In this document: in pieces, positions 17,514 to 38,444 of the stretch
Layout: each line of letters begins with the position of its first letter
Numbering within the stretch: position 1 is the first letter of the stretch
Source: a bacterium
GTDB taxonomy: Bacteria; Hydrothermota; Tepidihabitantia; B3-TA06
Direction of reading: 5' to 3'
Assembly: GCA_012517375.1 (NCBI GenBank)
Contig: JAAYVC010000119.1
Coordinates: 1 to 38,444, forward strand
Length of the DNA: 38,444 nucleotides
The notes under the pieces: model-generated
What the model saw: the letters and a program-made list of their open reading frames with translations, nothing else
Databases searched by the model: none
What the model was told of the DNA's origin: nothing
Translations under genes and position numbers: made by a program

Positions 17514-18552
17514 CGGCAAGCGATTCACGGACGAGTTCGGATCGTTTAACGTCCCTTTTCTCCGGCGCCATATCCTCAGCGTAATAGAATTGAAGATTGG
17601 CGGGTTTCGTGAGAATCATCAGTTTGTTGAGCTTGGCGATACTCAAGTTCGGAATCTTTTCCCATCCAAGTCTCAGGGTAGAAAGAAGATTAAACGTTTC
17701 CTCGCTCGTCAAAGTTCTCGCATATTTAAGAATACCCAGCGAACGATAGACCTTGTCAAGGATATAGTTACCCATCTTAGTATCCAGGTATTCTCGCGCA
17801 TCCTTTTCGTAGTTGATAAGCTGATGTGCCGTCTTCGTCAATGTCTCAACTATCTCCTCTTCGCTCTGCCCGAGTGTTTTCTGATTCGATATCTGGAAAA
17901 GATATCCCTTAGTCTCCGTTCCTTCGCCGTAGGTTCCTCTAACGAGAAGCCCTAACTGCAACACACCACGTAAAACACGGTCTATTTCCTTCGTTAAGAC
18001 GATACCCGGAAGATGAATCAATACAGAAGCTCTCATTCCCGTACCGACATTTGTGGGACATGCCGTAAGAAAGCCGTAACGTTCGTTGTATGCGAAGGGC
18101 AAAGAGACTGCAATTGATTCTTCAATCTTTTTTATCTTCTGCCACAAATCAACAAGAGCGAGTCCGGACGCAAACATCTGCATACGGATGTGATCCTCCT
18201 CGTTAACCATAAGACTGAAATCCTCTCCCGATGTTGCGTAGAAACCCCGCTGTGTCTGGCTATGAACAAAATCCGGTGAAACCAAGTGTCTTTCCATTAG
18301 AAATTCGGCTTCCATCGGCGAAAGATCTTCAAACTTCACAATGCCCTTGCCGTTCGAAAGCAGGGAAGCCGCAAGCGCTTTGTTGACGTGATCGAGAAGT
18401 TCAATCTGTTCTTTAACAGAAGCCTTAAGGAGAAAAGGTATTCCATCTATATTACGGGCAAGCCTTATCCTTGAACTCATTACAATGCCGGCCTCCATCC
18501 CCTCTCCCCTAAGCCATTTTCCTGTCTCTTTTGGATCAAGGCCCGTTTTCAT
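17500..18552 (-). CDS. mcsB: Protein arginine kinase McsB
   Basis: McsB phosphorylates arginines on damaged or regulatory proteins and marks them for Clp proteolysis in Firmicutes. It has 350 residues and the phosphagen-kinase fold. VMSSRIRLARNIDGIPF binds nucleotide, and the catalytic Cys165 is in LTACPTNVGTGMRASVLIHL, equivalent to Cys167 in Bacillus. GTYGEGTETKGYLFQISNQ is the other conserved loop. The gene overlaps mcsA by 17 bases at its start and thiL at its end. No clpC, clpP or ctsR lies in the window, so the usual Firmicutes ctsR-mcsA-mcsB-clpC order is broken and the target protease must be elsewhere. Confidence 0.95.
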   Translation of the reverse strand: MKTGLDPKETGKWLRGEGMEAGIVMSSRIRLARNIDGIPFLLKASVKEQIELLDHVNKALAASLLSNGKGIVKFEDLSPMEAEFLMERHLVSPDFVHSQTQRGFYATSGEDFSLMVNEEDHIRMQMFASGLALVDLWQKIKKIEESIAVSLPFAYNERYGFLTACPTNVGTGMRASVLIHLPGIVLTKEIDRVLRGVLQLGLLVRGTYGEGTETKGYLFQISNQKTLGQSEEEIVETLTKTAHQLINYEKDAREYLDTKMGNYILDKVYRSLGILKYARTLTSEETFNLLSTLRLGWEKIPNLSIAKLNKLMILTKPANLQFYYAEDMAPEKRDVKRSELVRESLADVQA

Positions 18553-19024
18553 ATTTCCTCATGTCATCTCTTATTCGAGCTGCCTTTTCGTACTCCTCTT
18601 CCTGTATAGCTCTGGCAAGTTCCTTACGCAGTCTCTTGAGTTCCACCTCTTTGAAAACCAATGAAGTCTCGTGTGAAGACCGGGCTCTTTGCCCGACATG
18701 CTGCGTGGACCCTTGAACCCTTGAGATAAGCTTTTCAATTCTCTCGCCAAAACTCTGATAGCAAGCCGAACAGCCTAGCCTGCCTTTTCCCTTAAAATCC
18801 GACCAGCTTGTACCGCATGAATTGCATACTACCTCTTCTTCGCCTTCTTGTTTCTCTTTCAAAGCATCTGAGAAAATCTCGGCAATAGGTTTTTCTTTTT
18901 GAACCAGATAACCTTTTTTCGCGGCACAAGCCTTGCATAAATGCTTTTCCTGGAGAACACCCTGTGTGTTCACCTCCGTAACAAGCACCTCGGATTCATT
19001 CTCGTGGCAGTCTTCGCAGAGCAT
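18536..19024 (-). CDS. mcsA: McsA, zinc-binding activator of McsB
   Basis: McsA is the small zinc-finger adaptor that activates McsB. The 162 residues carry an N-terminal pair MLCEDCHENE and HLCKACAAKKG, a central pair VVCNSCGTSW and LGCSACYQSF, and a C-terminal UVR motif (LRKELARAIQEEEYEKAARI, about residues 130-150) that forms a coiled coil in UvrB-like proteins. The ATG overlaps the lolD stop as TAATG. The direct linkage to mcsB supports the assignment. Confidence 0.95.
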   Translation of the reverse strand: MLCEDCHENESEVLVTEVNTQGVLQEKHLCKACAAKKGYLVQKEKPIAEIFSDALKEKQEGEEEVVCNSCGTSWSDFKGKGRLGCSACYQSFGERIEKLISRVQGSTQHVGQRARSSHETSLVFKEVELKRLRKELARAIQEEEYEKAARIRDDMRKYENGP

Positions 19025-23580: not shown

Positions 23581-24588
23581 TTAATTGTCAGGCTTCGATT
23601 CTTCCCAAGTCACTGCTTTAGATGCAAGTTCGGCGATATTGATATTTACCGGGCAGGCGCGTCCGCAGCGTCCGCAGCCCAGGCATTGATACATGCCGAA
23701 GACCTGGTGAAAGTAGTTGAACTTGTGATTGAGCCTCTGGCGCCAGCGCTGGGCTCCGGAGGGACGGGGATTATGGCCTGATGTTTCAATGGTGTATTCC
23801 TTGTAAAGACAGGAATCCCACTGCCGCGAGCGCTTGCCGCGCGAACCCTTCGAGTCGTCGGAGATATCGAAACAGTGGCACGAAGGGCAAACGAACGCGC
23901 AGGTTCCGCAGCCGATGCAGGTGAAGTGGGTTTCCTCCCAGAACTTTGAGTCAACCATCACTTTGAGCTTTTCCGCGACGCCTTCGAGATCGTACTCCTT
24001 GATTTTGGATTCGGCAAGCGTGCGGTCGGCTTCGATTTTTGAGCGATCTTCGACTGTTTCGAACGAAAGGCCTGCAAGGGCCTCCTCCCCCTTCTTTGTG
24101 ATGACGTCGAGGAGATAGCCTTGACCTGTTGAATAGATGAAGATGTCAGAACCCTTTGATTCGTAAGGCGAGCCTTGCACGGACGTGCAGAAACATGTGG
24201 GTAAGGGTTCAGCGCAAGCCATACCGACGATGAGCGTGCGCTCGAAGCGCTTCATGAAGTAAGGATCCCTGTATTCTGTTTGATTGAACATCTTTTCTAG
24301 TTCCCATATCCCTCGAATGTCGCATGGCCGCACCCCGAACAAGACTTGCTGTCGCTCTTCGTGTTTTGGAGCTATTACGTTCTGCGCCTTGAAATGAAAG
24401 AGTGCCTCGTCCTGGGGGAAGAAAAGCTCCTTTGGCGAGAAGGCGCCCAAAAGCACCGACGACTGCCAGTCGTCGTATTGCTCAAGAACCTGATAGAGAT
24501 AACGGTTTCCGGCTTTCTTTAATCCGACAATCCGGCTTGATTTTGAGAGATGATCAAACAATTCTTTCAAGTTCTTGAGCCTGGTCAT
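23581..24588 (-). CDS. Dicluster ferredoxin subunit, sulfhydrogenase-beta/AsrA/FlxB-like
   Basis: A 335-residue iron-sulfur protein. The N-terminal two thirds carry VLFGVRPCDIRGIWELEKMF, RDPYFMKRFERTLIVGMACA and PTCFCTSVQGSP, the pattern of hydrogenase/sulfite-reductase beta-type subunits (Fer4_22-like). Two [4Fe-4S] motifs follow: TCIGCGTCAFVCPSCHCFD (about residue 219) and QCLGCGRCGRACPVNINIAE (about 304). Proteins of this type accompany HdrA and MvhD homologs in Flx/Flox-Hdr loci, and a similar electron-relay role is inferred. The ATG overlaps the preceding gene's stop (ATGA). It is the last gene of the operon, and a vestigial copy of its 3' end lies 34 bases downstream. Confidence 0.8.
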   Translation of the reverse strand: MTRLKNLKELFDHLSKSSRIVGLKKAGNRYLYQVLEQYDDWQSSVLLGAFSPKELFFPQDEALFHFKAQNVIAPKHEERQQVLFGVRPCDIRGIWELEKMFNQTEYRDPYFMKRFERTLIVGMACAEPLPTCFCTSVQGSPYESKGSDIFIYSTGQGYLLDVITKKGEEALAGLSFETVEDRSKIEADRTLAESKIKEYDLEGVAEKLKVMVDSKFWEETHFTCIGCGTCAFVCPSCHCFDISDDSKGSRGKRSRQWDSCLYKEYTIETSGHNPRPSGAQRWRQRLNHKFNYFHQVFGMYQCLGCGRCGRACPVNINIAELASKAVTWEESKPDN

Positions 24589-25538
24589 AGTATGAACTCC
24601 TCCGCATCGTCCTTCTTGTAGTTTGCTAAAGGCGGCAGTGCGTCAGGATCAACACCCGATTCGAATTCAAACCGCTCCCGCACAATGAGATTCATCTTGC
24701 GGGTCATCCACGTGAGCTTGACACCCATCGGACACGCCTCTTCACACGCGCCGCAGTCAACGCAGCGTCCGGCCTGGTGGTAGACCCTTATGAGCTGCCA
24801 TATAGCGACGTCTGTAGGCTCCTGGCCCTTTGCCACCCACTGAGGTTGGCTGATGTCAACAAAGCACTCGTCGCAGTTGCACGTGGGGCAAGCCTGGCGG
24901 CATGCGTAGCAGCGGATGCATTTCGACATTTCTTGCTTGAGGTGTTCGTGACGTTCTGATGCGGGCTTCTCGCCGAACTCGCGGATTTTTTCGTAACCGT
25001 CGCCTTCAGGTTCCGGAATAGGAACGCCAAGTGCGATGTCGGAGATAACGGGCGCGTGGTATCTGCAGGCCTCGCAGTTCGCGGGTACGAGATCGAAACA
25101 TGAAACCTCTTTGACACCCTCGACCGTAGTAAACGACCACTTCTCCCCCGCTGGCGCGTCTGCGGAGATTATTTCTCCGACTTTTTCGACAGCAACCTTG
25201 CGCGAAAGCATTCCGGGACAGTTGACACCGATTATGTAAAGCCGCTCGCGGTCTATCTGATTCTCCTTGAGCAGGGCGACAATGGAGCGTGAATCGCAGC
25301 CCTTGGCCACGATGCCGATGCGGTCTTTTGTCGTGCGAAAACGACTGAGGTAGGTTGCGAGATTCAGGAGGCCGAACGACGGCCAGATAAGCTTATCCGC
25401 ATCCTCGGGTTTTGAGATGAACACGGGCTTGACCTGAACGGCCGTATCGCCTTCGGTATAGCCGATGACGAAGTCCACCTTGCCCTCGGACAGAATCCTG
25501 CGCGCCTCTTCGCGGATTGAAGCTGTGAGATTACTCAT
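24585..25538 (-). CDS. Dicluster iron-sulfur subunit, FrhB/FlxC-like
   Basis: A 317-residue iron-sulfur protein from the ATG at 25538. RIGIVAKGCDSRSIVALLKE and YIIGVNCPGML resemble the N-domain of coenzyme F420 hydrogenase/dehydrogenase beta-type proteins, with a CD(S)R motif that echoes PCDIR in its neighbour. NCEACRYHAP adds a CxxC pair. The C-terminal part has KCIRCYACRQACPTCNCDEC and RCVDCGACEEACPMGVKL, two [4Fe-4S] motifs. The ATG has a GGGGA ribosome site; a GTG at 25565 would add nine residues. The start region is duplicated 67 bases upstream. It is likely a cytosolic electron-relay partner of the HdrA-MvhD proteins. The exact redox partner is unknown. Confidence 0.78.
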   Translation of the reverse strand: MSNLTASIREEARRILSEGKVDFVIGYTEGDTAVQVKPVFISKPEDADKLIWPSFGLLNLATYLSRFRTTKDRIGIVAKGCDSRSIVALLKENQIDRERLYIIGVNCPGMLSRKVAVEKVGEIISADAPAGEKWSFTTVEGVKEVSCFDLVPANCEACRYHAPVISDIALGVPIPEPEGDGYEKIREFGEKPASERHEHLKQEMSKCIRCYACRQACPTCNCDECFVDISQPQWVAKGQEPTDVAIWQLIRVYHQAGRCVDCGACEEACPMGVKLTWMTRKMNLIVRERFEFESGVDPDALPPLANYKKDDAEEFIL

Positions 25539-25597
25539 AAGTTCCCCTGCCCTCGGTCTGGACACTTTCCCGACTACCCATGATTACTGTGGTGAGG

Positions 25598-26041
25598 TTA
25601 CTCATCAGGATACTCTCTTTTCTTCAGGAACTGCGTGCGGTCGGAGACTTTCTTTACGGATTCGGTGACGTGCGTTACGACCTCGGCAAACTTGCCGCCT
25701 TCTGCGGCGGAGACCCATGAGAAGTGCACGCGGCCTGGTTCGAGGCCGACGTATTCCAGAAGATCACGCATGGCCGCAAACTTGCGCCTGGCGTAGTAGT
25801 TGCCCTCAAGGTAGTGGCAATCGCCCGGGTGGCATCCGGAGATCAAAACACCGTCAGCGCCCTCCTGCAAAGCCTTGAGGATGAACTGCGGATTCACACG
25901 CGCCGAGCATGGCACACGCAGCACGCGCAGATTTGGCGGGTACTGGATTCTTGAGGTTCCTGCAAGGTCCGCTCCCGCGTAGGAGCACCAGTTGCAAAGG
26001 AAGGCAAGGATACGGGGGTCATTATCGTTCGTGTTATTCAT
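25598..26041 (-). CDS. mvhD: MvhD-type [2Fe-2S] subunit
   Basis: MvhD passes electrons between a hydrogenase or dehydrogenase module and HdrA. This 147-residue protein is canonical, with cysteines at 16 and 19 (FLCNWCSYAGADLAG), 45 (RVPCSARVN), and 70 and 75 (SGCHPGDCHYLEGN). RLEYVGLEP-type residues follow around position 100 (DLLEYVGLEPGRVHFSWVSA). The ATG overlaps the end of the AT-rich inserted gene by eight bases, and no good Shine-Dalgarno precedes it, so its translation probably depends on that gene. Its natural partner is the long HdrA encoded just before the insertion. Confidence 0.92.
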   Translation of the reverse strand: MNNTNDNDPRILAFLCNWCSYAGADLAGTSRIQYPPNLRVLRVPCSARVNPQFILKALQEGADGVLISGCHPGDCHYLEGNYYARRKFAAMRDLLEYVGLEPGRVHFSWVSAAEGGKFAEVVTHVTESVKKVSDRTQFLKKREYPDE

Positions 26042-26612
26042 TTCTGTCCACAGTCCTATGTACCTTTTGTCTGGTTTGTTTTCGATATTGTTCTAAAAGA
26101 CTTAGAACTCTAACGACCTCATCATTATAATTTGATGTTCCAATTTCTTTCAACAGCTCTGGAATCACGTCATCTCTGAAGAATAGGATTGACAAACTTC
26201 TTTTCTGAATTCTAAGATTTTCCTCTTGTGAGCGTAACCATTTTTCGACTTCTTCTTTCGATTCTTTAATATCCCAAACACAAATGACACGTTTGACACT
26301 CTTATGGTCTATTCCAAATTTCTTATAGGTTTCACAAATATTCTGATAATAATTCTTAGCTTCCTTGGCACTGGGTTTAGGTTTCCCAAAGAATTTATAT
26401 TCGATGTAAGTTTCAAGTTTATTGAGACTAGGACGCCAACTGAGTTCGTGAGTCACCGTAGTTTCCACGTGAAAACACTCCCCAGATCCTTTTTGAAAAG
26501 AAAGAAGATCTATTTGCCGATTCACACCTTTTTCAACTTGAACATCCGTTATCGTAAAACAATGCTTTACCAATCTGTAATATGTCTCAACAATGTGCTC
26601 AGTCGCGTTCAT
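26034..26612 (-). CDS. AT-rich inserted gene, possible PD-(D/E)xK-like protein
   Basis: No family is confidently recognised. It has 192 residues from the ATG at 26612, one base after the hdrA stop. The segment VNRQIDLLSFQKG followed by CFHVETTVTHE has the D-x(n)-ExT spacing of a PD-(D/E)xK nuclease-like core, but the usual Lys is Thr, so activity is doubtful. The C-terminal half is Lys/Glu-rich and helical (SKEEVEKWLRSQEENLRIQK). A hand count of 26101-26160 gives 20 of 60 G+C, against 37 of 60 for 28201-28260 in hdrA. The gene interrupts an otherwise functional hdrA-mvhD pair and has no iron-sulfur motif, which points to horizontal insertion. A longer start at 26624 is possible. Confidence 0.72.
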   Translation of the reverse strand: MNATEHIVETYYRLVKHCFTITDVQVEKGVNRQIDLLSFQKGSGECFHVETTVTHELSWRPSLNKLETYIEYKFFGKPKPSAKEAKNYYQNICETYKKFGIDHKSVKRVICVWDIKESKEEVEKWLRSQEENLRIQKRSLSILFFRDDVIPELLKEIGTSNYNDEVVRVLSLLEQYRKQTRQKVHRTVDRNE

Positions 26613-26613
26613 A

Positions 26614-29600
26614 TCACACCCCACAACACCCGGTTATGTCCTCCTCCTCCCACATGAGCTGCTGGAAGGCGGAGACGAGTTCCTGGTTCGTAAAACCTGC
26701 AAGATCTATAGAGTTGGAGCGGCACGACGCCGCGCAGCCGCCGCAGCCCTTGCACAAGGCCGCGTTCACGGAGGCGACCTTCTTTTCGTGTCCGAGCACG
26801 CGTTTGGGTTCGAGCGAGATGGCTCCGTAAGGACAAACCTCCACGCAGTACCCGCAGCCGATGCAGGTGCGCTCGTTAACCGAAGCGATCTTACCCTCGG
26901 CCTCGATGTGGTCCTTGTTGAGGATAAGGATCGCTCGCGCGGCTGTGGCCGATGCCTGGGCAATGGCCTCATCGAGGAATTTAGGCGCATGCGCGAGACC
27001 GGCAAGGTATACGCCGTCGGTGGCAAAATCCACCGGACGAAGCTTCATGTGCGCCTCAAGGAAGAAGCCGTCTTCATTGAGAGGCACTTTGTAGTGCTGG
27101 GCAAGGGTTTTATTGGATTCCTTCTCGGCGATTATGCCGGTGGAGAGGGCAATAAGGTCAGGCGCAAATTCGACATCCTTTCCGATAAGCTCATCCATGA
27201 GACGAACGGTCAGTTTGCCGTTGCTTCGCGCCACGACGGGCTCCGAACCCTTGTCGAAACGCAGGAAGAGGACGCCCATCTCGCGGGCCTTCTCATACGC
27301 AAGTTCTTTGAGTCCGTAGGTTCTAAGATCGCGGAAGAGGACGATTACTTCGGTTTCAGGCGACTTTTCCTTTATTGTGAGGGCGTTCTTAACGGCCTCG
27401 GTACAGCAGACGCGCGAGCAGTATGGGTGCTCGTCCGACCGGGAACCCACGCACTGGATCATCACGACCGTTTTGGCGTCGAAGGAACCATTGTGAAGAC
27501 GCCCCTCGAGCTCGCGTTGAGGGATGACCTGCGGGTCGGTGGAGAGATACTCATCCTGCCTGGGTTGGTACTCGGACGCACCGGTCGCGATGATGGTTGC
27601 GCCGTGTTCGATTGTCTCGCCGTTGGACAGCGTGGTCTTGAAATTTCCTACAAACCCTTCCACTTTCGAGACTTCTGTATTCTTGTAAAGGTGGATGTTC
27701 GGCTCACGTTCGACTTCTTCTATAAGTCTAGCCAGATACGCCTGGCTGTCCTCGTCCCATAGGGTCTTGGTCAAATGGGATAGGTTGCCGCCGAGCGAGT
27801 CCGAGCGCTCCACGAGTACGGTCTCGAAGCCTGCCTGAGCGATAGAAAGTGCCGCCACCATGCCTGAGACCCCTCCCCCTATCACAAGGGCCGATTTGGT
27901 AACAGGAAGCTCGATGTTGGGAAGTGCGCGAAGCCTTGCCGCCTTTGCAACCGCCATGCGAACAAGGTCCTTTGCCTTCTGGGTCGCCTTGTCAGGTTCG
28001 TGCATGTGCACCCACGAGTCCTGATCGCGTATGTTGGCCATCTCGAAAAGGTACTTGTTGAGACCGGCCTCGCGTATGGTGGACTGAAAGAGCGGTTCAT
28101 GCGTTCGCGGAGTGCAAGCTGAGACGATGACACGATTTAAGCGGAAGTTCTTAATGATATCCTTTATCTTCTCCTGCGTGTCTGATGAGCACGTGTAAAG
28201 GTTCTCTCCAGCGTAAACGACGCCCGGAAGGGTCTTGGCGTAAGCTACGACCTCGGGCACGCGCACGACCGAACCGATGTTTATGCCGCAGTGGCAGACG
28301 AAGACGCCGATGCGCGGCGGCTCGGTGAAGACGTCGCGCTCCAGAGGAAGATTCTTCGCGAGCGTCTCAGAATTGCGGGAATCGCCTAAAAGCCCCTGCA
28401 CCATGCCAGCAGCACCCGAAGCCTGCGCCACGCTTTCTGGGATGTCCTTAGGCGAGGAAGCAGCGCCCGCGACAAACACGCCATAGCGGGTCGTGAGCAT
28501 TGGCGCAAAGGTCGATGTTTTCACGAAACCATGAGCGTCAAGCTCAATGCCAAGGGCTGCTGCAAGCTTAGGCGAGGTTTTGGGAGGTTCAAGCCCGACA
28601 GAGAGGACGACCATGTCAAAGGTTTCTTTTTTGAGCTTGCCGTCGTCGGTTTCGTATGTCAGAGTGACTTCTCGAGTCTGGAAATCTTCTGTAACCTTGG
28701 ATACCCTTCCCCTCACATAACGGACCCCGAACTGGTTCTGAGCCCGGTCTATGTAGCGATCAAAATCCTTGCCGTATGCGCGTATGTCCATGTAAAAAAT
28801 GGACTTCTGCATATGCGGGGCATGCTCGCCCGCGATTATGGCTTCCTTGGTGGCGTACATGCAGCAGACGGACGAACAGTAAGGGCGGTTGATGTGACGG
28901 TCGCGGCTTCCCACGCACTGAATCCATGCCACGCGCTCGACGTCCTTGCCGTCGGACGGGCGAAGTATATGCCCTGCGGTCGGTCCTGAGGAGGACATAA
29001 GCCTTTCGAATTCGATACTTGAAAGCACGTTCGGAAACCGGCCGTACCCGTATTCGCTGAGGAGGGCGGGATCGAATTCGTCGAATCCGGGTGCGAGGAG
29101 CACAGCTCCCACCTCTAGCTCTTCGACCGAATCCTTGTCCGAGTACCGGACCGCATTCGGAGGGCAGATATTCGCGCAAAGCCCGCAACCTATGCACTTA
29201 TCTTTGTCTATCGCATAGGCAAGCGGCACGGACTGGGGATAGGAGATGTAGGCTGCGCGGCGCTCGGAAAGACCCTCGTTGTAGGCGTCAACGGCGGACA
29301 CCGGACAGTTCTTGGCGCAGAGTCCGCATGCGGTGCAAACGACCGGGTCGATGTAGCGCGCGTGTTTCTGCAGTTTAACCTTAAATTTACCAGGCTCTCC
29401 CTCAAGGCCGACCAGCTCGGTGGAAGTCTTAATCTCGATGTTGAGGTGACGTCCGGTGTCGACGAGCTTGGGGGATAGTATGCACATGGAGCAGTCGTTT
29501 GTCGGGAAGGTCTTGTCAAGCTGCGCCATTACGCCGCCTATGGTGGGTTTCGAATCCACCATGTAGACCTTTATGCCGCCGTCCGCAAGGTCGAGCGCTG

Positions 29601-29664
29601 CCTGAATGCCAGCGATGCCGCCGCCGACCACAAGACAGGCGCCTTTAGTTTTTGCGTCAGGCAT
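26614..29664 (-). CDS. hdrA: Long fused HdrA-type flavoprotein (two FAD, four ferredoxin-type clusters)
   Basis: HdrA carries the bifurcating FAD in heterodisulfide reductase complexes. This 1016-residue form is a fusion. The first half has VVGGGIAGIQAALDLAD, the HdrA-type NDCSMCILSPKLVDTGRH, and two clusters, CTACGLCAKNCP and CIGCGLCANICP. The second half begins about residue 460 with GVFVCHCGINIGSVV, then SACTPRTHEPLFQ, a second FAD motif VIGGGVSGMVAALSIAQ, and two more clusters, CIGCGYCVEVCP and CKGCGGCAASCR. It is cytosolic, with no membrane segment. ATG 29664 follows GGAGG by six bases; a TTG at 29670 is less likely. It overlaps the preceding gene by eight bases. No HdrB or HdrC is encoded nearby. 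Confidence 0.93.
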   Translation of the reverse strand: MPDAKTKGACLVVGGGIAGIQAALDLADGGIKVYMVDSKPTIGGVMAQLDKTFPTNDCSMCILSPKLVDTGRHLNIEIKTSTELVGLEGEPGKFKVKLQKHARYIDPVVCTACGLCAKNCPVSAVDAYNEGLSERRAAYISYPQSVPLAYAIDKDKCIGCGLCANICPPNAVRYSDKDSVEELEVGAVLLAPGFDEFDPALLSEYGYGRFPNVLSSIEFERLMSSSGPTAGHILRPSDGKDVERVAWIQCVGSRDRHINRPYCSSVCCMYATKEAIIAGEHAPHMQKSIFYMDIRAYGKDFDRYIDRAQNQFGVRYVRGRVSKVTEDFQTREVTLTYETDDGKLKKETFDMVVLSVGLEPPKTSPKLAAALGIELDAHGFVKTSTFAPMLTTRYGVFVAGAASSPKDIPESVAQASGAAGMVQGLLGDSRNSETLAKNLPLERDVFTEPPRIGVFVCHCGINIGSVVRVPEVVAYAKTLPGVVYAGENLYTCSSDTQEKIKDIIKNFRLNRVIVSACTPRTHEPLFQSTIREAGLNKYLFEMANIRDQDSWVHMHEPDKATQKAKDLVRMAVAKAARLRALPNIELPVTKSALVIGGGVSGMVAALSIAQAGFETVLVERSDSLGGNLSHLTKTLWDEDSQAYLARLIEEVEREPNIHLYKNTEVSKVEGFVGNFKTTLSNGETIEHGATIIATGASEYQPRQDEYLSTDPQVIPQRELEGRLHNGSFDAKTVVMIQCVGSRSDEHPYCSRVCCTEAVKNALTIKEKSPETEVIVLFRDLRTYGLKELAYEKAREMGVLFLRFDKGSEPVVARSNGKLTVRLMDELIGKDVEFAPDLIALSTGIIAEKESNKTLAQHYKVPLNEDGFFLEAHMKLRPVDFATDGVYLAGLAHAPKFLDEAIAQASATAARAILILNKDHIEAEGKIASVNERTCIGCGYCVEVCPYGAISLEPKRVLGHEKKVASVNAALCKGCGGCAASCRSNSIDLAGFTNQELVSAFQQLMWEEEDITGCCGV

Positions 29665-30409
29665 TGGCAACCTCCACGTAAAGCGGCCGTTCGTGTTCTA
29701 TGCGGTCGAAACGGGCCCTTGTTTCGCGTTCGAGTTCGACTATGAGCTCGAACACCCTGCGGGCCTCCAGTCCGGTGAGTGCGGAAACCTCGACCGCCGA
29801 GCGCGGCTCAGATAACGCCTCCAGAACAAGACCCTTGCGGTATTCGGCCCGGAGTGTATCCTTCACGAGCTTCTCGTATTCGGACGAATCGAGCTTCTCA
29901 TCGAACACGTTGCCCTTGCGGACGAGTTCCAGTTCCTTTGAAAGAAGCCAGCGGACGGCTTGAGAGCGGGCAGTACGCCGCATGGCAGCTACTCGAACTG
30001 TAAGTTCCGGTTTTATTGAGACATCAGATGACAAATCTCCAAACTCCTTTAACTTCCCTTCAAACTTATCTATCGCGGATTTGAGACCGAAAGCGAGAGT
30101 CGTATCGGCATGATAGAAACCGATTCGCTCAGGCTTTAGACCTGCGAAAGACATAAGATCGGCAAGATGGTTGATTCTTGAAAGCGCGTGGTGGTTGCCG
30201 GACTCGTAGTGACAGTCGCCGAGCGGGCAGAGCGCGAAGAATATGCCGTCAGCTCCATTGGCCAGAGCCTCCACTCCATCGGCGATGTCGAATCTTGCCG
30301 AGCAACGCAGGTTGATGAAAGAAATGGATGATGAGTATTCCATCCGCTGCATTCCGGCAAAGTCGAGCGCGAACCCTGCCCAATCGCAGGTAAAGCCGAG
30401 TATTTTCAT
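29657..30409 (-). CDS. Divergent MvhD-like protein with C-terminal helix-turn-helix-like extension
   Basis: It has 250 residues. The first 135 match MvhD: FTCDWAGFALDFAGM, NLRCSARFD, ALCPLGDCHYESGNHH and FAGLKPERIGFYHAD. The second cysteine of the first pair is replaced by Ala11 (CDWA rather than CNWC), so the [2Fe-2S] site is incomplete or differently ligated. The remaining 115 residues are absent from ordinary MvhD: a helical stretch, then GLVLEALSEPRSAVEVSALT and GLEARRVFELIVELERE, which looks like a winged helix. The ATG overlaps the previous gene (ATGA) and the end overlaps the long hdrA. It probably docks to the shorter HdrA-like protein encoded before it. Whether the extra domain binds DNA or protein is unknown. 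Confidence 0.8.
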   Translation of the reverse strand: MKILGFTCDWAGFALDFAGMQRMEYSSSISFINLRCSARFDIADGVEALANGADGIFFALCPLGDCHYESGNHHALSRINHLADLMSFAGLKPERIGFYHADTTLAFGLKSAIDKFEGKLKEFGDLSSDVSIKPELTVRVAAMRRTARSQAVRWLLSKELELVRKGNVFDEKLDSSEYEKLVKDTLRAEYRKGLVLEALSEPRSAVEVSALTGLEARRVFELIVELERETRARFDRIEHERPLYVEVANA

Positions 30410-31881
30410 TTAGATTCCCCCCAAGCCTCTATCTGCGCCTGAATCGTCTCGCGTGACTTCATGGGATCCGATATCGCATATACAGGACATCCGGCCACGC
30501 ACAATCCGCATAAGGTACAGAATCTAGATGAGATGGACGCCTTGGAACCCGTATCTGTGCGTTCGAGCATGGGCGCGCCGTAGGGACATACGGCAGCGCA
30601 GTAGCCGCACCCGATGCAGCGCTCGCTGTCAATCTCTGCCGACGGTTGACGTAGCGGTCTTGAGTCGAAAAACGATTTAATCCTTGCGGCAACCTCGAAG
30701 GCCTGGTTTATGGTCTCCTCGACCGGAATGGGAGCATGAGCGGCTCCAACAATGAATATGCCCGGATGCAGGATATCCTTAGGCCGGATCCTGTAGCGGC
30801 GCTGGACGAGAAATCCTTCTTCATCTTGCGGAATTCTAAGGAGTTGCGCTAGCTTTGAAGGCAGGTTTCCAACAAGCTTGCCAAGTTTTACATGCGCTCC
30901 CTGCCAGCTAGGGCCGACCTCGCCGACTGAGATGCCGATTGCGTGCTTGGCTGCGCTCTCCTCAAAACCCAAAGGCAGTTCGAAATTCTTCGGTATGAAA
31001 AAGAATATGTTCTCCTCTGGTTTTTCGTGCTTGAGCATCACGGCGTCCCACAAAGCTGTTTCCAGGAGGAAAGGGTGTACGCCCTCTCTTACCTCAAAAG
31101 CCAGAGGACCTCTGAAGTTGATGATATCTCTCCAGCGGTACTCGAATTCAAAAAGATTTCCGCCGACCTCGTGCACGCCGGTTGCAATAACAATTGCTCC
31201 GATTAACTCCGCTTGTCCGTTAGAAAGCCTGACGCGGTATCCGTGAGGATCATCCGAAAGCTCCAAAAGCTCGGAGTCTTGATAAACCGTTACATGAAGT
31301 TCGTCCTGCAACTCATCGTATAAGCGGTGCAAAAGCTTCTCTGAATCCTCACCCGAGGGCCAAACAGTACGAGTGCGGCGCAGGGTTCCTCCGAGCCGTG
31401 ACGCCCTGTCCAGAAGAACTACATCAACACCGTTTTCTGCAAGCGCTCTTGCGCATGCAAGACCAGCAGGTCCAGCACCAATAACAAGAACTCTTTCGAC
31501 GAGATCGAGTTCCCTTTCAGTAACGGGCTTTTTGTTAACAAGTTCCGCGATTCCCATTGAAACGAGCCGCAGAGCCTTTTCAGCAGCATTTACGGAGTGA
31601 ACCCACGCACATCGTTCGCGCAGATTTACAAGTATGGATGGATTAGAGCCTGCGAGGGATTTGAAGATTTCACCGTGCGTGCGCTCGTCGCATGCGCCGA
31701 AAAGGATTGAGCCCTTAGCATCCTTTAACGCTTCCCTGGGAGCGCCGTCGCACAGTTGCGGAAGCGCCTCTGTAGATTCGACTTGCGGATGCGATTTAAA
31801 GTAATCTAACAACTTCTTGATATCAATCCTCTGCCCTATCTCGCACCCCTGGCAAAGGAAGATTTTCACCTTTTCTATCAC
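30406..31881 (-). CDS. Short HdrA-like FAD protein with two ferredoxin clusters
   Basis: It has 491 residues. The N-terminal IFLCQGCEIGQRIDIKKLLD and a later LFGACDERTHGEIFK resemble the Fe-S N-domain of HdrA. The FAD/NAD(P)-type domain starts with VLVIGAGPAGLACARALAEN (about residue 132) and continues to HPGIFIVGAAHAPIPVEETI. Two [4Fe-4S] motifs close it: CIGCGYCAAVCPYGAP (residue 422) and CTLCGLCVAGCPVYAI (residue 455). The start is GTG at 31881, preceded by a G-rich stretch. It pairs with the MvhD-like gene that overlaps its stop. The 139-base gap before it carries a palindrome, unusual in this tightly packed operon. Confidence 0.85.
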   Translation of the reverse strand: MIEKVKIFLCQGCEIGQRIDIKKLLDYFKSHPQVESTEALPQLCDGAPREALKDAKGSILFGACDERTHGEIFKSLAGSNPSILVNLRERCAWVHSVNAAEKALRLVSMGIAELVNKKPVTERELDLVERVLVIGAGPAGLACARALAENGVDVVLLDRASRLGGTLRRTRTVWPSGEDSEKLLHRLYDELQDELHVTVYQDSELLELSDDPHGYRVRLSNGQAELIGAIVIATGVHEVGGNLFEFEYRWRDIINFRGPLAFEVREGVHPFLLETALWDAVMLKHEKPEENIFFFIPKNFELPLGFEESAAKHAIGISVGEVGPSWQGAHVKLGKLVGNLPSKLAQLLRIPQDEEGFLVQRRYRIRPKDILHPGIFIVGAAHAPIPVEETINQAFEVAARIKSFFDSRPLRQPSAEIDSERCIGCGYCAAVCPYGAPMLERTDTGSKASISSRFCTLCGLCVAGCPVYAISDPMKSRETIQAQIEAWGESK

Positions 31882-32798: not shown

Positions 32799-34811
32799 TC
32801 AATTTCCACCTTCTTTAGTCTTGGGTGAGGAGGAAGGTGTGTTACGGGTGTTACTGGTGTTACTGGTGTTACTGGAGTTACGGGTGTTACGGGTGTTACG
32901 GGTGTTACGGGTCACTGCGTCGAACTTACAGACATCGTAACAAACCCCGCATTTGATGCACTTGGATTGATCTATAGCATGGAGTTTTTTGACTTCCCCT
33001 GCAATGGCGGATGTCGGACAGTTTCTTGCACACAGTGTACAGCCCGTGCATTTATCGGTAATTTCGAATCTTATAAGAGCCTTGCAGACGCCCGCGCGAC
33101 ATTGTTTATCACGAATGTGTTCGATGTATTCATCCTTGAAAAACCGCAAGGTGGAGAGAACGGGATTTGCCGCCGAGCCGCCGAGTGCGCACAAAGACGC
33201 ATCCTGAGTGACTTTTCCAAGCTCTTCAAGAAGCTCGATATCGGATTCTTTACCATTCCCTTCCGTGATTTGAGTGAGTATCTCGTGCATCTGGGATAAC
33301 CCTTCCCGGCATGGTACGCACTTGCCGCAGCTTTCTTCTTTGAGGAACTCTATAAAATACTTGGCGACATCGACCATGCAGGTTTCGGAATCCATGACTA
33401 TCATTCCGCCTGAACCCATCATTGAGCCCGCTTCCCACAGCTTATCGAAGTCCACTTCGAGGTCTATGAGATCGGCTGGAATACATCCGCCCGACGGGCC
33501 GCCGGTCTGCACTGCCTTAAAGGGTTTGTCCTTAGGAATTCCGCCGCCTATATCATAGATTATATCCCTTAACGTAACTCCCATAGGCACTTCAACAAGA
33601 CCGGCCCTTCGAACTTTTCCGACGAGCGAGAATATCTTGGTGCCTGTAGACTCAGGATTTCCTATCCTGGAAAACCATTCCGCTCCTCTTACAGCGATTA
33701 CGGGCACGTTGTTCCAGGTTTCGACGTTGTTCAAAACGGTCGGTTGGTTCCACAGGCCTTTTTCTGCTGTGTGAGTGTACTTCGCGCGCGGTTCGCCTGG
33801 CTTGCCCTCTATTGAAGCCATAAGGGCGGTAGATTCGCCGCATACGAACGCACCGCCTCCCTTGGCGATTCGCAAGTCAAACTCGAAACCGGAACCAAGA
33901 ATATCCTTTCCCAGAAGACCCTCTGCATAGGCGTCATCTATTGCCTTCTGGAGATTCTTCACAGCCAAGGGGTATTCCGCTCTAACGTAAACGTAACCTT
34001 GCCGGGATTCAAGCGCATAGGCTCCGATAAGCATACCCTCGATTATCGAGTGCGGATCGCCCTCAAGAAGTGAGCGATCCATGTAGGCGCCAGGATCGCC
34101 CTCGTCGGCATTGCACAGAACGTAGCGGTAGCCTGGCGCGGATTTTGAGGAACGCCATTTTTGCGAGGTCTGGAATCCGCCGCCGCCTCTGCCGCGCAAA
34201 CCTGCCTTCTCTACCATGTCGATGACCTCGTCCGGTTTCATCCCGGTAAGCACCTTGTAGAGACCAAGATATCCGCCGCGAGCTATGTATTCCGATATGG
34301 ATTCAGGGTCAATGATCCCGCAGTTCCGCATGGCAAGATGCATCTGCCTTGCCGTAAAGGGAAGCCGCCAGAACTCTTCTGCAGATTCGATTTCTTGCGG
34401 AAGTTTTTCTGTGGGAAACCTGAAACGCTTATCGTGAATTACGTCCTCGACCTCCTCAATCTTGCCAAGAAGTTTATCCTTAACCAGCTTTCCTTCATAA
34501 ACCGCCGAAAGAATGCTCTTGACGTCCTTAGGTTTAACCTTTGAGTAGGTCAAACGGGGCCAGCCGGGCTTGAGTATATCGAGCAAAGGCTCCTCGTAGC
34601 ACATGCCGATGCAGCCTGTGCGCGCGATTATCGTATCTTTGCCTGCACCGTTCAAGGATTCAAGAGTTTGGGCAACGGCGGCTATGACTTCATTCGCTCC
34701 AGAGGCTATACCGCACGTTGCCGAACCTATCATAATCTTGAGCCGGGAAGGATGTATTCTGGAAGCGCCTTCGAGCGCAAACCGTTCAAGATCGGCGAGC
34801 GTTTTTATCAC
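32799..34811 (-). CDS. nuoF: NuoF-like NADH-binding flavoprotein with minisatellite tail
   Basis: A 670-residue NADH dehydrogenase subunit of the NuoF/HydB/HndC type. The N-terminal thioredoxin-like [2Fe-2S] domain has IGSATCGIASGANEV and TGCIGMCYEEP. The NADH/FMN core has GLRGRGGGGFQTSQKW (about 208) and CNADEGDPGAYMDRSLLEGD. ESCGKCVPCREG holds a [4Fe-4S] cluster. Two C-terminal ferredoxin motifs are CTGCTLCARNCP and CIKCGVCYDVCK. The protein then ends in an Asn-Thr-Arg/Ser repeat encoded by eight 9-base units (32841-32912), an extension with no iron-sulfur role. The start is GTG at 34811, overlapping the nuoE-like stop by four bases. Confidence 0.93.
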   Translation of the reverse strand: MIKTLADLERFALEGASRIHPSRLKIMIGSATCGIASGANEVIAAVAQTLESLNGAGKDTIIARTGCIGMCYEEPLLDILKPGWPRLTYSKVKPKDVKSILSAVYEGKLVKDKLLGKIEEVEDVIHDKRFRFPTEKLPQEIESAEEFWRLPFTARQMHLAMRNCGIIDPESISEYIARGGYLGLYKVLTGMKPDEVIDMVEKAGLRGRGGGGFQTSQKWRSSKSAPGYRYVLCNADEGDPGAYMDRSLLEGDPHSIIEGMLIGAYALESRQGYVYVRAEYPLAVKNLQKAIDDAYAEGLLGKDILGSGFEFDLRIAKGGGAFVCGESTALMASIEGKPGEPRAKYTHTAEKGLWNQPTVLNNVETWNNVPVIAVRGAEWFSRIGNPESTGTKIFSLVGKVRRAGLVEVPMGVTLRDIIYDIGGGIPKDKPFKAVQTGGPSGGCIPADLIDLEVDFDKLWEAGSMMGSGGMIVMDSETCMVDVAKYFIEFLKEESCGKCVPCREGLSQMHEILTQITEGNGKESDIELLEELGKVTQDASLCALGGSAANPVLSTLRFFKDEYIEHIRDKQCRAGVCKALIRFEITDKCTGCTLCARNCPTSAIAGEVKKLHAIDQSKCIKCGVCYDVCKFDAVTRNTRNTRNTRNSSNTSNTSNTRNTPSSSPKTKEGGN
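32841..32912. repeat. 9-base tandem repeat inside nuoF-like gene
   Basis: Eight units of GTTACGGGT or close variants (GTTACTGGT, GTTACTGGA) run without a break. On the minus strand they encode Asn-Thr-Arg or Asn-Thr-Ser triplets. A lone extra unit sits at 32790-32798, overlapping the stop codon at 32799-32801 only at its edge. Confidence 0.9.
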
Positions 34812-35347
34812 CCGCGTTCCCCGGATTCTTTTGAATACTGTTCGAGAAGCTTTGGGACGCCATCCTGCTTTACGTATGCATGGGTCTCCTCGTCCACCAT
34901 TACTGCAGGCGCAATTGAGCAGCAGCCTATGCAGCGCACGCCCTGAAGCGTGAACTGACCGTCCTTCGTGGTTTCATCCTGTTCGATGCCGAGTTCGCGC
35001 TTGAAGCGATCCATTACGAGCCCGGCGCCTTTTACATGGCAGGCGGTTCCCAGGCATACGTTCACTATATGTTTTCCCTTAGGTTTTAAGGAAAAAGCGG
35101 AATAAAAGGTCGCCACGTGATAAACCTGTGATAAGGGCACCCCAAGTCTTGCAGCAACCTGACGCATTGCGTGTTCCGGAAGATAATGATACTTGGCTTG
35201 CAGTTCCTGCAAAGCGGCAATAACATGCTCAGAGACTGCACCTGCACCCTGCTCCTGCACTTCAAGAGGAAGCTCTATGTGCCTTGAGGTCAATTCTTTC
35301 AAGACACGATAGGTTGCTTCACTTACTAATCCAGAATCTTCCTTCAT
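34808..35347 (-). CDS. nuoE: NuoE-like [2Fe-2S] subunit
   Basis: This is the first gene of the operon, 179 residues. The thioredoxin-like domain binds one [2Fe-2S] cluster through C98 and C103 (NVCLGTACHVKG) and C139 and C143 (VRCIGCCSIAPAVMVDEETH), the standard NuoE/HydC/HndA pattern. LQAKYHYLPEHAMRQVAARL precedes it. The ATG at 35347 has an AAGGAG about 13 bases upstream and a consensus promoter about 70 bases upstream. It passes electrons between the flavin of the NuoF-like partner and the rest of the complex. Confidence 0.93.
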   Translation of the reverse strand: MKEDSGLVSEATYRVLKELTSRHIELPLEVQEQGAGAVSEHVIAALQELQAKYHYLPEHAMRQVAARLGVPLSQVYHVATFYSAFSLKPKGKHIVNVCLGTACHVKGAGLVMDRFKRELGIEQDETTKDGQFTLQGVRCIGCCSIAPAVMVDEETHAYVKQDGVPKLLEQYSKESGERG

Positions 35348-35415: not shown

Positions 35416-35443
35416 ATTATAAAAAGATAGCTAAGATTGTCAA
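35416..35443 (-). promoter_or_regulatory. Consensus promoter of the electron-transfer operon
   Basis: Minus strand: TTGACA (35443-35438), a 16-base spacer and TATAAT (35421-35416), a perfect match at both hexamers. The leader to the nuoE-like ATG is about 60 bases and contains AAGGAG. No other promoter was seen down to 23581. Confidence 0.88.
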
Positions 35444-35478: not shown

Positions 35479-35646
35479 TTATTTAAGATTGCAGCGATCT
35501 GTATACTCTTCGGGTGCAGGCACTTCCCCAAGGCTTTCCTTTAGTTTTTTGTAACATTCCGGACACAAAGGAACAGGCATATCGCATTCATTCAGAAGCT
35601 GTTCGTCTATCTCTTTCCCGCATGAAATACAGGTTTTTTCAGACAT
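35479..35646 (-). CDS. 55-residue double-CxxC zinc-ribbon protein, paralog 1
   Basis: A short gene of unknown function. The translation starts MSEKTCISCGKEIDEQLLN, continues VPLCPECYKKLKESLG, and ends VPAPEEYTDRCNLK. Cysteines at 6, 9, 28 and 31 form two CxxC knuckles, a treble-clef or zinc-ribbon pattern, and a further Cys lies in the C-terminal DRCNL. AGGAGG precedes the ATG by five bases and a dedicated promoter is present at 35685-35712. The next gene upstream is a paralog with the cysteines at the same positions. Zinc binding and an adaptor-like role are inferred. Confidence 0.82.
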   Translation of the reverse strand: MSEKTCISCGKEIDEQLLNECDMPVPLCPECYKKLKESLGEVPAPEEYTDRCNLK

Positions 35647-35684
35647 CTAAACCTCCTATATCTTACGCCCTCTTACACGTCTTG

Positions 35685-35712
35685 ATTATGAAAAGAATTG
35701 GTTCACTGTCAA
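35685..35712 (-). promoter_or_regulatory. Promoter of zinc-ribbon paralog 1
   Basis: Minus strand: TTGACA (35712-35707), a 16-base spacer and CATAAT (35690-35685). The start codon is 38 bases downstream with AGGAGG in the leader. Confidence 0.68.
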
Positions 35713-35773
35713 TAAGGAATATTACCTATCTTTTATAAGGAAGTGTATGCAGTTAAGCCACTAAAGCTACAGA

Positions 35774-35944
35774 TTATCTGAGGTTGCAGCGATCGTTGTA
35801 TTCAACCGGTGCAGGCACTTTTTCTTCGAATGCGTTGCGGATCTCGTTGTAGCAATCCGGACAGATGGGCACAATAAGATCAATCCGCTTGAGCCATTGC
35901 TTATCTATCTCCTTACCACATTCGAAACAGAATATCTTACGCAA
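35774..35944 (-). CDS. 56-residue double-CxxC zinc-ribbon protein, paralog 2
   Basis: A second copy of the family, 56 residues. It begins (M)RKIFCFECGKEIDKQWLK, continues VPICPDCYNEIRNAFEE and ends VPAPVEYNDRCNLR. Cysteines 6, 9, 28 and 31 match paralog 1, and the closing VPAPxEYxDRCNL block is nearly identical. The start is TTG at 35944, six bases after GGAGG; the nearest alternative, a TTG four bases earlier, is stopped at once by TAA. It has its own promoter at 36035-36062. Separate promoters for such similar tandem genes suggest different expression conditions. Function is unknown. Confidence 0.8.
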   Translation of the reverse strand: MRKIFCFECGKEIDKQWLKRIDLIVPICPDCYNEIRNAFEEKVPAPVEYNDRCNLR

Positions 35945-36034: not shown

Positions 36035-36062
36035 AATATACTCATTTTTGATTCCTTGTCAA
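36035..36062 (-). promoter_or_regulatory. Promoter of zinc-ribbon paralog 2
   Basis: Minus strand: TTGACA (36062-36057), a 16-base spacer and TATATT (36040-36035). The leader to the TTG start is about 84 bases. The rest of 35947-36199 shows nothing I recognise. Confidence 0.68.
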
Positions 36063-36199: not shown

Positions 36200-36361
36200 T
36201 CAGTTAATATAATGATGGGTTTCTGCAACTTTCGGGTTTTCCACCACCTTGACCGACACCCTCTCCCCCTTCTCGTACACGTTCATCACCATGAGGCCGT
36301 ATTGTTCGAGAATCTCTTCAAGCAACTTCTGCGCTTCTTTTTTATCTGCAACCTGTTTCAT
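36200..36361 (-). CDS. Possible 53-residue protein
   Basis: A minus-strand frame from ATG 36361 to TGA reads MKQVADKKEAQKLLEEILEQ, then YGLMVMNVYEKGERVSVKVV and ENPKVAETHHYIN. The composition (Lys/Glu-rich helix, then alternating Val strands) is that of a real small soluble protein. An in-frame TAG lies three codons upstream, so only this ATG can start it. No clear Shine-Dalgarno is present. A weak promoter-like TTGGAA, 16 bases, TTGTAT ends eight bases before the ATG. The overlapping plus-strand reading at 36188 is His/Leu-rich and looks like its shadow. Confidence 0.5.
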   Translation of the reverse strand: MKQVADKKEAQKLLEEILEQYGLMVMNVYEKGERVSVKVVENPKVAETHHYIN

Positions 36362-36666: not shown

Positions 36667-37197
36667 CTATTTGTGATAAGTCGACAGATGCTCGTCGTAG
36701 AAAGCGCGCAGGCCTGCGACGAACAGACTGAGCCCCCTTGAGTTTTGCGAAACGGCTGCAAGTTTTTCCCTGTAAGGAAGACTCCCGGACGCCTGCGAGT
36801 AAAACTTTTCCCATCTGTAATCCAGAGGTTCGTGAAACTCGGACATGTGCATATTGAACACCCTTTCAAAATCGAAAGCGCAGGCAACCACTATCTCGAC
36901 CTCCTGCCTTACGAGTTCGAGACGTTCAGATGCCGACAAGGCGTCGATATCCTCGGGATAGTCTATCATATCGACTTCACAGTATGCGAATAACGAATCG
37001 GAATTCGCACGTTCCAGCTTGTAAAGATCTAGGAGGTGCCCGTTGAAATCTTCCCTTATTCCTGCAAATTCGCTCCAGGCATGGCTATGCAATTCCTCTA
37101 GTTCTTTGACTTCAGCGATATCTGACTTACCGCACTGGTGCCTGGTACAACCCAGACCCGCCAGCACGAGAATACCAAGACAGCCTAAAAATCTCAT
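36667..37197 (-). CDS. Lipoprotein with His-rich helical motifs, paralog A
   Basis: A 176-residue predicted lipoprotein: MRFLGCLGILVLAGLGC gives a lipobox with Cys17. The mature chain is all-helical, with spaced motifs SEFAGIREDFNGHLLDLY (about 42), FERVFNMHMSEFHEP (about 115) and GLRAFYDEHLSTYHK at the end. AYCEVDMIDYPED in the middle matches AYCGLDNVTYAPP of the neighbouring gene, and the order of motifs is the same, so the two are paralogs. GGAGG lies four bases before the ATG. Repeated His-x4-His pairs could bind metal or heme; this is an inference. It probably shares a transcript with the next gene upstream. Confidence 0.8.
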   Translation of the reverse strand: MRFLGCLGILVLAGLGCTRHQCGKSDIAEVKELEELHSHAWSEFAGIREDFNGHLLDLYKLERANSDSLFAYCEVDMIDYPEDIDALSASERLELVRQEVEIVVACAFDFERVFNMHMSEFHEPLDYRWEKFYSQASGSLPYREKLAAVSQNSRGLSLFVAGLRAFYDEHLSTYHK

Positions 37198-37257: not shown

Positions 37258-37866
37258 TCACCAGTGGCCGTTCATGTGTTCGTTAAAGTCAACCATGAGT
37301 TTTGCAAGAAGGGAATCCAAGTCGCGAATCTCGATTTCGAGGATGCGGACTGCGGTTGGTTGGGCAAGTTCTTCGGACAAACGCTTGTAGGAGAGTTCCA
37401 TTTCACATTTCTTTTTTACTCCGTGACATGCCTCAAGATGACCGCAGTAGAGCTCGGAGAACTTATTCACGCAGATGTTGAGATATCCGAGCTTTTCGTC
37501 CAGAAGGCCGATGCGTTCGCTTATTGGCGTCTTGTTTGATGGCGGCGCATAGGTTACATTGTCAAGCCCGCAGTAGGCGGTGTAGGGAGTTTCGTAGATT
37601 TCGGGTGCGGGAGTCGTGTCGACGATCTCCTCGCCCGATGAGTCATATTGTACCTCCCGATACTCGAAATGACGGGTAAGGTGCTTGTTGTAGTCCTGTC
37701 TAAGTCCCGTAAACTTTGAATATAGAGCCTCAAAAGAATGTTCTATCGAAGCCATGTGCAGGTCGATGTCAGGATCTAGAGGTAATAAATCGAACCTGCC
37801 TGTCTTCGGTCCGGAGCAACTCAAGAAGGTTAACGTCAAAAAAATCACAAAACAGATGAACTTCAT
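37258..37866 (-). CDS. Lipoprotein with His-rich helical motifs, paralog B
   Basis: A 202-residue predicted lipoprotein: MKFICFVIFLTLTFLSC ends in a lipobox at Cys17. Helical motifs are SKFTGLRQDYNKHLTRHFEY (about 57), VNKFSELYCGHLEACHG (about 139) and LMVDFNEHMNGHW at the end; LDEKLGYLN separates them. It is about 25 residues longer than paralog A, mainly by inserts around EYREVQYDSSGEEIVDTTPA. ATG 37866 follows AGGAGG by four bases; a start at 37911 would lie at the -35 box of the promoter. No known family is recognised. Confidence 0.82.
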   Translation of the reverse strand: MKFICFVIFLTLTFLSCSGPKTGRFDLLPLDPDIDLHMASIEHSFEALYSKFTGLRQDYNKHLTRHFEYREVQYDSSGEEIVDTTPAPEIYETPYTAYCGLDNVTYAPPSNKTPISERIGLLDEKLGYLNICVNKFSELYCGHLEACHGVKKKCEMELSYKRLSEELAQPTAVRILEIEIRDLDSLLAKLMVDFNEHMNGHW

Positions 37867-37883
37867 TCGTCCTCCTTTGGTCA

Positions 37884-37911
37884 AGTATAAACAAGCATGC
37901 ACCTTTGTCAA
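37884..37911 (-). promoter_or_regulatory. Promoter of the paralogous lipoprotein genes
   Basis: Minus strand: TTGACA (37911-37906), a 16-base spacer and TATACT (37889-37884). The leader is only about 12 bases and consists almost entirely of the AGGAGG ribosome site. Confidence 0.75.
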
Positions 37912-37942: not shown

Positions 37943-38444
37943 TTACTTTACGATGACTTTTCTCGATACGCTTTCAGAGCCTGCCGCAAGCCGCACGAAG
38001 TAGCATCCGCGAGCGAGGGAGGATGTGTTAATATCGAGCGTGTGAGCGCCGGCTGATGATGTGCCTTCAAAAAGCGACGAGACTAGCTGACCGGATGCGT
38101 CGTAGAGCTTGAGGGAAACGTTGCAGGTCGCTGGGATTGAGTAAGAGATGCTTTTACCGGAAACCTCAAGGTTGAGCGAGGAGGGTGAGGAGGGCCCTGA
38201 GGAGGGCTCTGAGGAGGGCTCTTCGACAGCATTGAGGTCTTGGTATTTTATGAGATGCGTGTAGTACTGAGAACCGTCGTTATAGGATGCTACGGCATAA
38301 AGGTAGCCGTCCTTCCAACAGAGCGCCTCGATTGAATTGTATTTATAGAAAAGCGACACGCGATCGCCCTCGGACGTGTACTTTGCAATGACACCTGAGG
38401 ATGCAGCTTTGCCGCCGACAAAAAGGTTGCCCTGGTCGTCCGCA
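37943..38444 (-). CDS. C-terminal part of a secreted protein with T9SS sorting domain (partial)
   Basis: The frame remains open to the right edge, so the gene is cut by the window; 166 codons are visible. The visible N-part (DDQGNLFVGGKAASSGVIAK, then CWKDGYLYAVASYND) looks like beta-propeller (SBBP/NHL-type) repeats. A Ser/Pro/Glu linker, EEPSSEPSSGPSSPSS, is encoded by a 12-base repeat. The last 75 residues match a T9SS type A sorting domain: SGKSISYSIPATCNVSLKLY, DASGQLVSSLFEGTSSAGAH, and the closing RGCYFVRLAAGSESVSRKVIVK region with its terminal K(V)IVK. Such domains are known to direct passage through SprA and are then removed. A GTG at 38359 is only an internal codon. Confidence 0.85.
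   Translation of the reverse strand, partial: ADDQGNLFVGGKAASSGVIAKYTSEGDRVSLFYKYNSIEALCWKDGYLYAVASYNDGSQYYTHLIKYQDLNAVEEPSSEPSSGPSSPSSLNLEVSGKSISYSIPATCNVSLKLYDASGQLVSSLFEGTSSAGAHTLDINTSSLARGCYFVRLAAGSESVSRKVIVK

Follow-up and report, generated by a model that had tools for sequence, protein, structure and literature searches.

Single-domain zinc-finger microproteins of fewer than 70 amino acids are a known kind of protein in haloarchaea, with phenotypes on deletion (PMC6562870). The C(P)xCG micro-proteins HVO_0758 and HVO_2753 of Haloferax volcanii carry two CxxC knuckles, one of them with CP. Another small four-cysteine (C4) finger is that of DksA/TraR (PF01258); TraR has 17 residues between its cysteine pairs and needs an N-terminal helix with a DxxDxA motif (PMC9239242). 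In this study, we compared with these systems two neighboring genes, A and B, of the window, the stretch of 38,444 nucleotides analyzed here.

Gene A (35479-35646, minus strand, ATG start) encodes 55 amino acids (MSEKTCISCGKEIDEQLLNECDMPVPLCPECYKKLKESLGEVPAPEEYTDRCNLK) with the pattern Cx2C-x18-Cx2C-x20-C, and gene B (35774-35944, minus strand, TTG start) encodes 56 (MRKIFCFECGKEIDKQWLKRIDLIVPICPDCYNEIRNAFEEKVPAPVEYNDRCNLR) with Cx2C-x18-Cx2C-x21-C. As the earlier note on this DNA had described, both proteins have cysteines at positions 6, 9, 28 and 31, and their pairwise alignment contains the blocks CGKEID.Q.L, VP.CP.CY and VPAP.EY.DRCNL. The fifth cysteine reported in the C-terminal block was found at position 52/53 and is also conserved in relatives; copy A has a sixth, C21. 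The same note placed both proteins below the usual gene-calling length, which is incorrect, as ordinary gene callers accept open reading frames (ORFs) of 55-56 amino acids. The two copies are paralogs with 53% identity. With A as query, the whole genome yielded only A itself (E=3e-34) and B (E=5e-16), and a likeness by which one copy finds the other at this level is not due to chance.

In composition, A and B correspond to the H. volcanii micro-proteins: they are shorter than 70 amino acids, with two CxxC motifs, one of them with CP, and no other domain. However, their second knuckle is CPxCY rather than CPxCG, they carry an additional cysteine-bearing tail, and the match to HVO_0758 is below cut-off (E=0.022 in Pfam, 0.044 in NCBIfam). 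Against the NCBIfam models for HVO_0758/HVO_2753, copy B scored 13.7 bits with a cut-off of 70 and copy A 12.7 bits with a cut-off of 80. No Pfam or NCBIfam model exceeded its cut-off for either copy, and PHROG gave nothing better than E=0.002. The weak family matches were mostly to small C4 fingers, namely DUF7575 (1e-5, below cut-off), DksA/TraR and the haloarchaeal micro-proteins, and a profile search of solved structures gave the yeast Sir2 zinc module at E=0.001. DUF7575 (PF24460) and generic zinc-ribbon Pfam models share the first CxxCGKEI knuckle, but their match is partial (15 residues) and below cut-off. A receiver-domain protein of Victivallales has a C-terminal CxxC...GVCPDCY module whose CPDCYNEI block is 67% identical over 18 residues; this module differs in having 29 residues between its cysteine pairs, a 376-amino-acid frame with a receiver-like domain and no RCN tail. 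From their four cysteines and the company of weak C4-finger matches, A and B probably bind zinc. The window also encodes an McsA-like protein with CxxC pairs and a UVR motif, beside a McsB-like ATP:guanido phosphotransferase gene (17500-19024, minus strand); it showed no real profile similarity to A and B and was rejected as a relative.

The first homolog search covered 61 genomes, the window's own and 60 relatives. Outside the window's genome, matches were found only in genomes G001 and G003, one copy each, with 42-46% identity to the pair (E 2e-10 to 4e-10). Both genomes belong to g2, a sister genus in the same family. A profile of the four sequences yielded no further convincing homolog in 147 genomes of the phylum or in 390 genomes of 303 genera, so that 3 of the 390 genomes, the window's own included, carry the microprotein. 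The weak phylum-wide profile matches were mainly CP.CY stretches in long ORFs and were set aside, not being two-knuckle homologs. Neither the homolog nor the profile search detected the microprotein in g3, a second sister genus represented by five genomes. The family is narrow: of the three genera observed within a single family, two carry it, since g2 alone gave matches besides the window's genome and neither g3 nor the wider profile scans added any.

All four sequences, the only ones on which the alignment of the family is based, share the four ligand cysteines, CGK, D14, L18, VP.CP.CY and the RCN tail. The two g2 copies differ at 9 first, 4 second and 22 third positions of codons (22 of 35 differences thus at third positions), with a dN/dS of 0.08, and synonymous sites are saturated in the remaining pairs. 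These codon-position differences and the low dN/dS in the g2 pair indicate that selection acts on the protein. Because two sister-genus relatives carry copies with such a dN/dS between them, both ORFs are judged to be protein-coding, real genes. Thus, the tandem family claimed in the earlier note is borne out by the 53% identical paralogs and their g2 homologs as one of real, tandemly duplicated small C4 proteins of metal-binding type.

The C-terminal tail is conserved only in part. R-C-N is invariant in all four sequences, while residues 42-51 are almost unconserved between genera; tail identity is 7/9 within the A/B pair and 1 of 9-10 between genera. Conservation of the longer block VPAP.EY(.DRCNL), as the earlier note had it, is therefore a property of the tandem paralogs. 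The note had staked its proposal on the existence of homologs and on a conserved tail in relatives; homologs were found in g2, and of the tail R-C-N is what they keep. Since the tail common to A and B is absent from g2, these four sequences suggest that the genera had separated before the duplication took place. In a randomisation on the four sequences, three adjacent invariant residues in the tail arose with P ~0.045, and this marginal signal is taken as suggestive rather than strong. The invariant RCN tail offers a single, simple site for testing.

AlphaFold2 (AF2) gave a usable model for the g2 sequence (pLDDT 73 overall, about 80-86 over residues 1-40, below 50 in the tail) and a poor one with copy B as query (pLDDT 60.5). 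The g2 model consists of a knuckle, a helix at 15-20, a helix at 29-46 that starts at the second cysteine pair, and a disordered tail. That this pair sits where a long helix begins points, with moderate confidence, to a treble-clef-like fold. The term zinc ribbon used in the earlier note is thus not entirely accurate. Foldseek comparison, performed with the g2 model only, gave no significant match.

A and B have the Shine-Dalgarno sites AGGAGG and GGAGG ahead of their starts. A promoter-like site lies before each gene, both on the minus strand: TTGACA-N16-CATAAT for A (35685-35712) and TTGACA-N16-TATATT for B (36035-36062), each matching the TTGACA-N16-TATAAT pattern at 11 of 12 positions. First-order Markov sequence would be expected to give 0.8 sites of at least 11/12; the window contains 8, and the claim that each gene has its own promoter is therefore well founded at the level of sequence. 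Both g2 copies have TTGACA-N16-TAAGAT upstream, and a promoter-like site together with a ribosome-binding site occurs at all microprotein loci. The spacer was exactly 16 nt in 6 of the 8 window sites of at least 11/12 (both strands); the usual optimal promoter spacer is 17 nt.

The location of the pair invites the reading that A and B are accessory or assembly factors, or rubredoxin-like iron electron carriers, of an adjacent NuoEF-HdrA-FlpD electron-bifurcating complex. On the same strand, downstream of the pair, lie a nuoE-like gene (34808-35347, minus strand), which is the first of the NuoEF/HdrA gene run and a neighbor outside the microprotein family, a nuoF-like gene, a ferredoxin-domain gene, split hdrA-like genes and FlpD genes. 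The CPxC knuckle is as in rubredoxins, and copy B has a weak NCBIfam rubrerythrin-like match (E=0.0039, below cut-off). Against a carrier of this type, rubre_like_arch scored 16.9 bits with a cut-off of 32, over an 11-residue stretch, and the Pfam scan of A and B listed no rubredoxin model. The earlier note had associated the pair with the operon and had proposed to check whether the two track each other; they do not, because g3 has the operon genes without the microprotein and g2 has the microprotein elsewhere. Homologs of nuoE are present in all five g3 genomes, none of which has a microprotein; the closest, in four of them, are 74-81% identical, and the closest homologs of the 250-amino-acid FlpD-like subunit (72-75%) are in three g3 genomes. 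We read the DNA upstream of nuoE in six relatives (4-5 kb each, only about 0.9 kb in G006), and no frame there reached the profile inclusion threshold, the best short frames having E=0.07 and above. In g2, which lacks close homologs of the operon, the nuoE of G001 is only 41% identical and on a different contig from the microprotein, and no nuoE homolog was found in G003 (81% complete). The g2 microprotein gene lies between an unrelated 95-amino-acid orphan gene, which it follows, and cysK and/or DUF3160 genes. This orphan gene was considered as a conserved small partner and dismissed, since it matched only remotely and at other locations. In the window, nuoE has its own promoter-like site downstream of gene A (35416-35443, minus strand, TTGACA-N16-TATAAT, 12/12), separate from those of A and B. 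Co-occurrence and synteny in relatives thus do not connect the pair with the operon, and a role in the complex, largely refuted by distribution, is very unlikely; a tempting but unsupported link to electron bifurcation is thereby removed.

An action on RNA polymerase at the rim of its secondary channel, with A and B as free-standing DksA/TraR-type C4 fingers that lack the coiled coil, is possible, though we regard it as unlikely. The CxxCG.xI...L...C..C layout resembles the DksA/TraR finger, the profile matched the DksA chain 2kq9 at E=0.036, and DksA/TraR chains ranked first among solved structures in Foldseek and made up 6 of its top 12 PDB matches, all insignificant (best E=0.64). However, copy A reached only 16.4 bits (E=0.0095) against PF01258, with a cut-off of 24.9, and copy B was not listed; the cysteine pairs are separated by 18 rather than 17 residues in all four sequences; and, because only five residues precede the first cysteine (residue 6), they lack the N-terminal DxxDxA helix or coiled coil that TraR needs (PMC9239242). 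An ordinary DksA-like protein is also encoded elsewhere in the genome. An antitoxin-like, phage-derived or mobile zinc-finger gene is a still fainter prospect. Small C4 proteins are numerous in phage genomes, PHROG and BFVD showed weak similarities, and tblastn matched a Lactococcus phage ORF (E=0.02, 37% over 43 amino acids), but this match ends at residue 43 and so does not cover the tail. Searches of viral contigs (IMG/VR, either scan), phages and plasmids gave nothing convincing. Shortness and the lack of a family match above cut-off might suggest spurious ORFs; paralogy, homologs, purifying selection and the ribosome-binding and promoter-like sites already refute this, leaving it a negligible probability.

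We consider it reasonably likely that A and B belong to an orphan, lineage-restricted family of one-domain C4 zinc-finger microproteins acting as free small adaptors or regulators. In the mechanism proposed, the four cysteines (Cx2C-x18-Cx2C) would bind one zinc ion and so hold together a miniature fold comprising a beta knuckle, one short helix and a longer helix capped by the second cysteine pair; a flexible tail would end in the invariant Arg-Cys-Asn. Each copy would be transcribed from its own putative sigma70-type promoter and would function as a small protein on its own. Its most likely role is that of an adaptor or regulator whose binding partner is a protein, or possibly a nucleic acid, and the tail cysteine would serve as a contact or thiol-switch residue. 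By analogy with the known kind of microprotein (PMC6562870), and given the independent promoters, a role as small protein-binding regulators is probable. A more speculative version, to which we give little credence, is a minimal, coiled-coil-free DksA/TraR-type finger with a thiol-bearing tail that would regulate transcription or another core machine by redox or zinc state; it would occur in one bacterial family, with a duplication in a single genus. The analysis adds an unnamed family, kept under purifying selection, to the little that is known of small zinc-finger proteins in bacteria.

Several other features were observed. In G004, 1.2 kb upstream of nuoE, a 192-amino-acid membrane-type protein (L035:1883-2461, minus strand) ends in a C4 finger (CSLCGEKID...VICLNC) and matches no Pfam model above cut-off; it was rejected as a relative, with no profile match at E<=5 and absence from G002 and the other stretches read. 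Upstream of the pair, a 53-amino-acid ORF (36200-36361, minus strand; MKQVADKKEAQKLLEEIL...) was considered as a conserved small partner gene and dismissed, nine genomes yielding no convincing relative. The nuoF-like protein (32799-34811, minus strand) ends in a low-complexity repeat (NTRNTRNTRNTRNSSNTSNTSNTRNT). The Hdr cluster (23581-31881, minus strand) is unusual, with hdrA-like sequence divided between two ORFs, FrhB-like and Fer4_22 proteins, and a pair of FlpD genes, one of which is extended at the C-terminus. At 36667-37197 and 37258-37911 (minus strand) lies a tandem pair of orphan paralogs that resemble lipoproteins, have diverged to 22% identity (BLASTP E=9e-12 in a comparison of these two alone) and match no Pfam model; the second has an 11/12 promoter-like site (37911-37884) ahead of its likely start. 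A SprA_N-like protein (1-4824, minus strand) and a Por_Secre_tail C-terminus (37943-38443, minus strand) are signs of a putative type IX secretion system.
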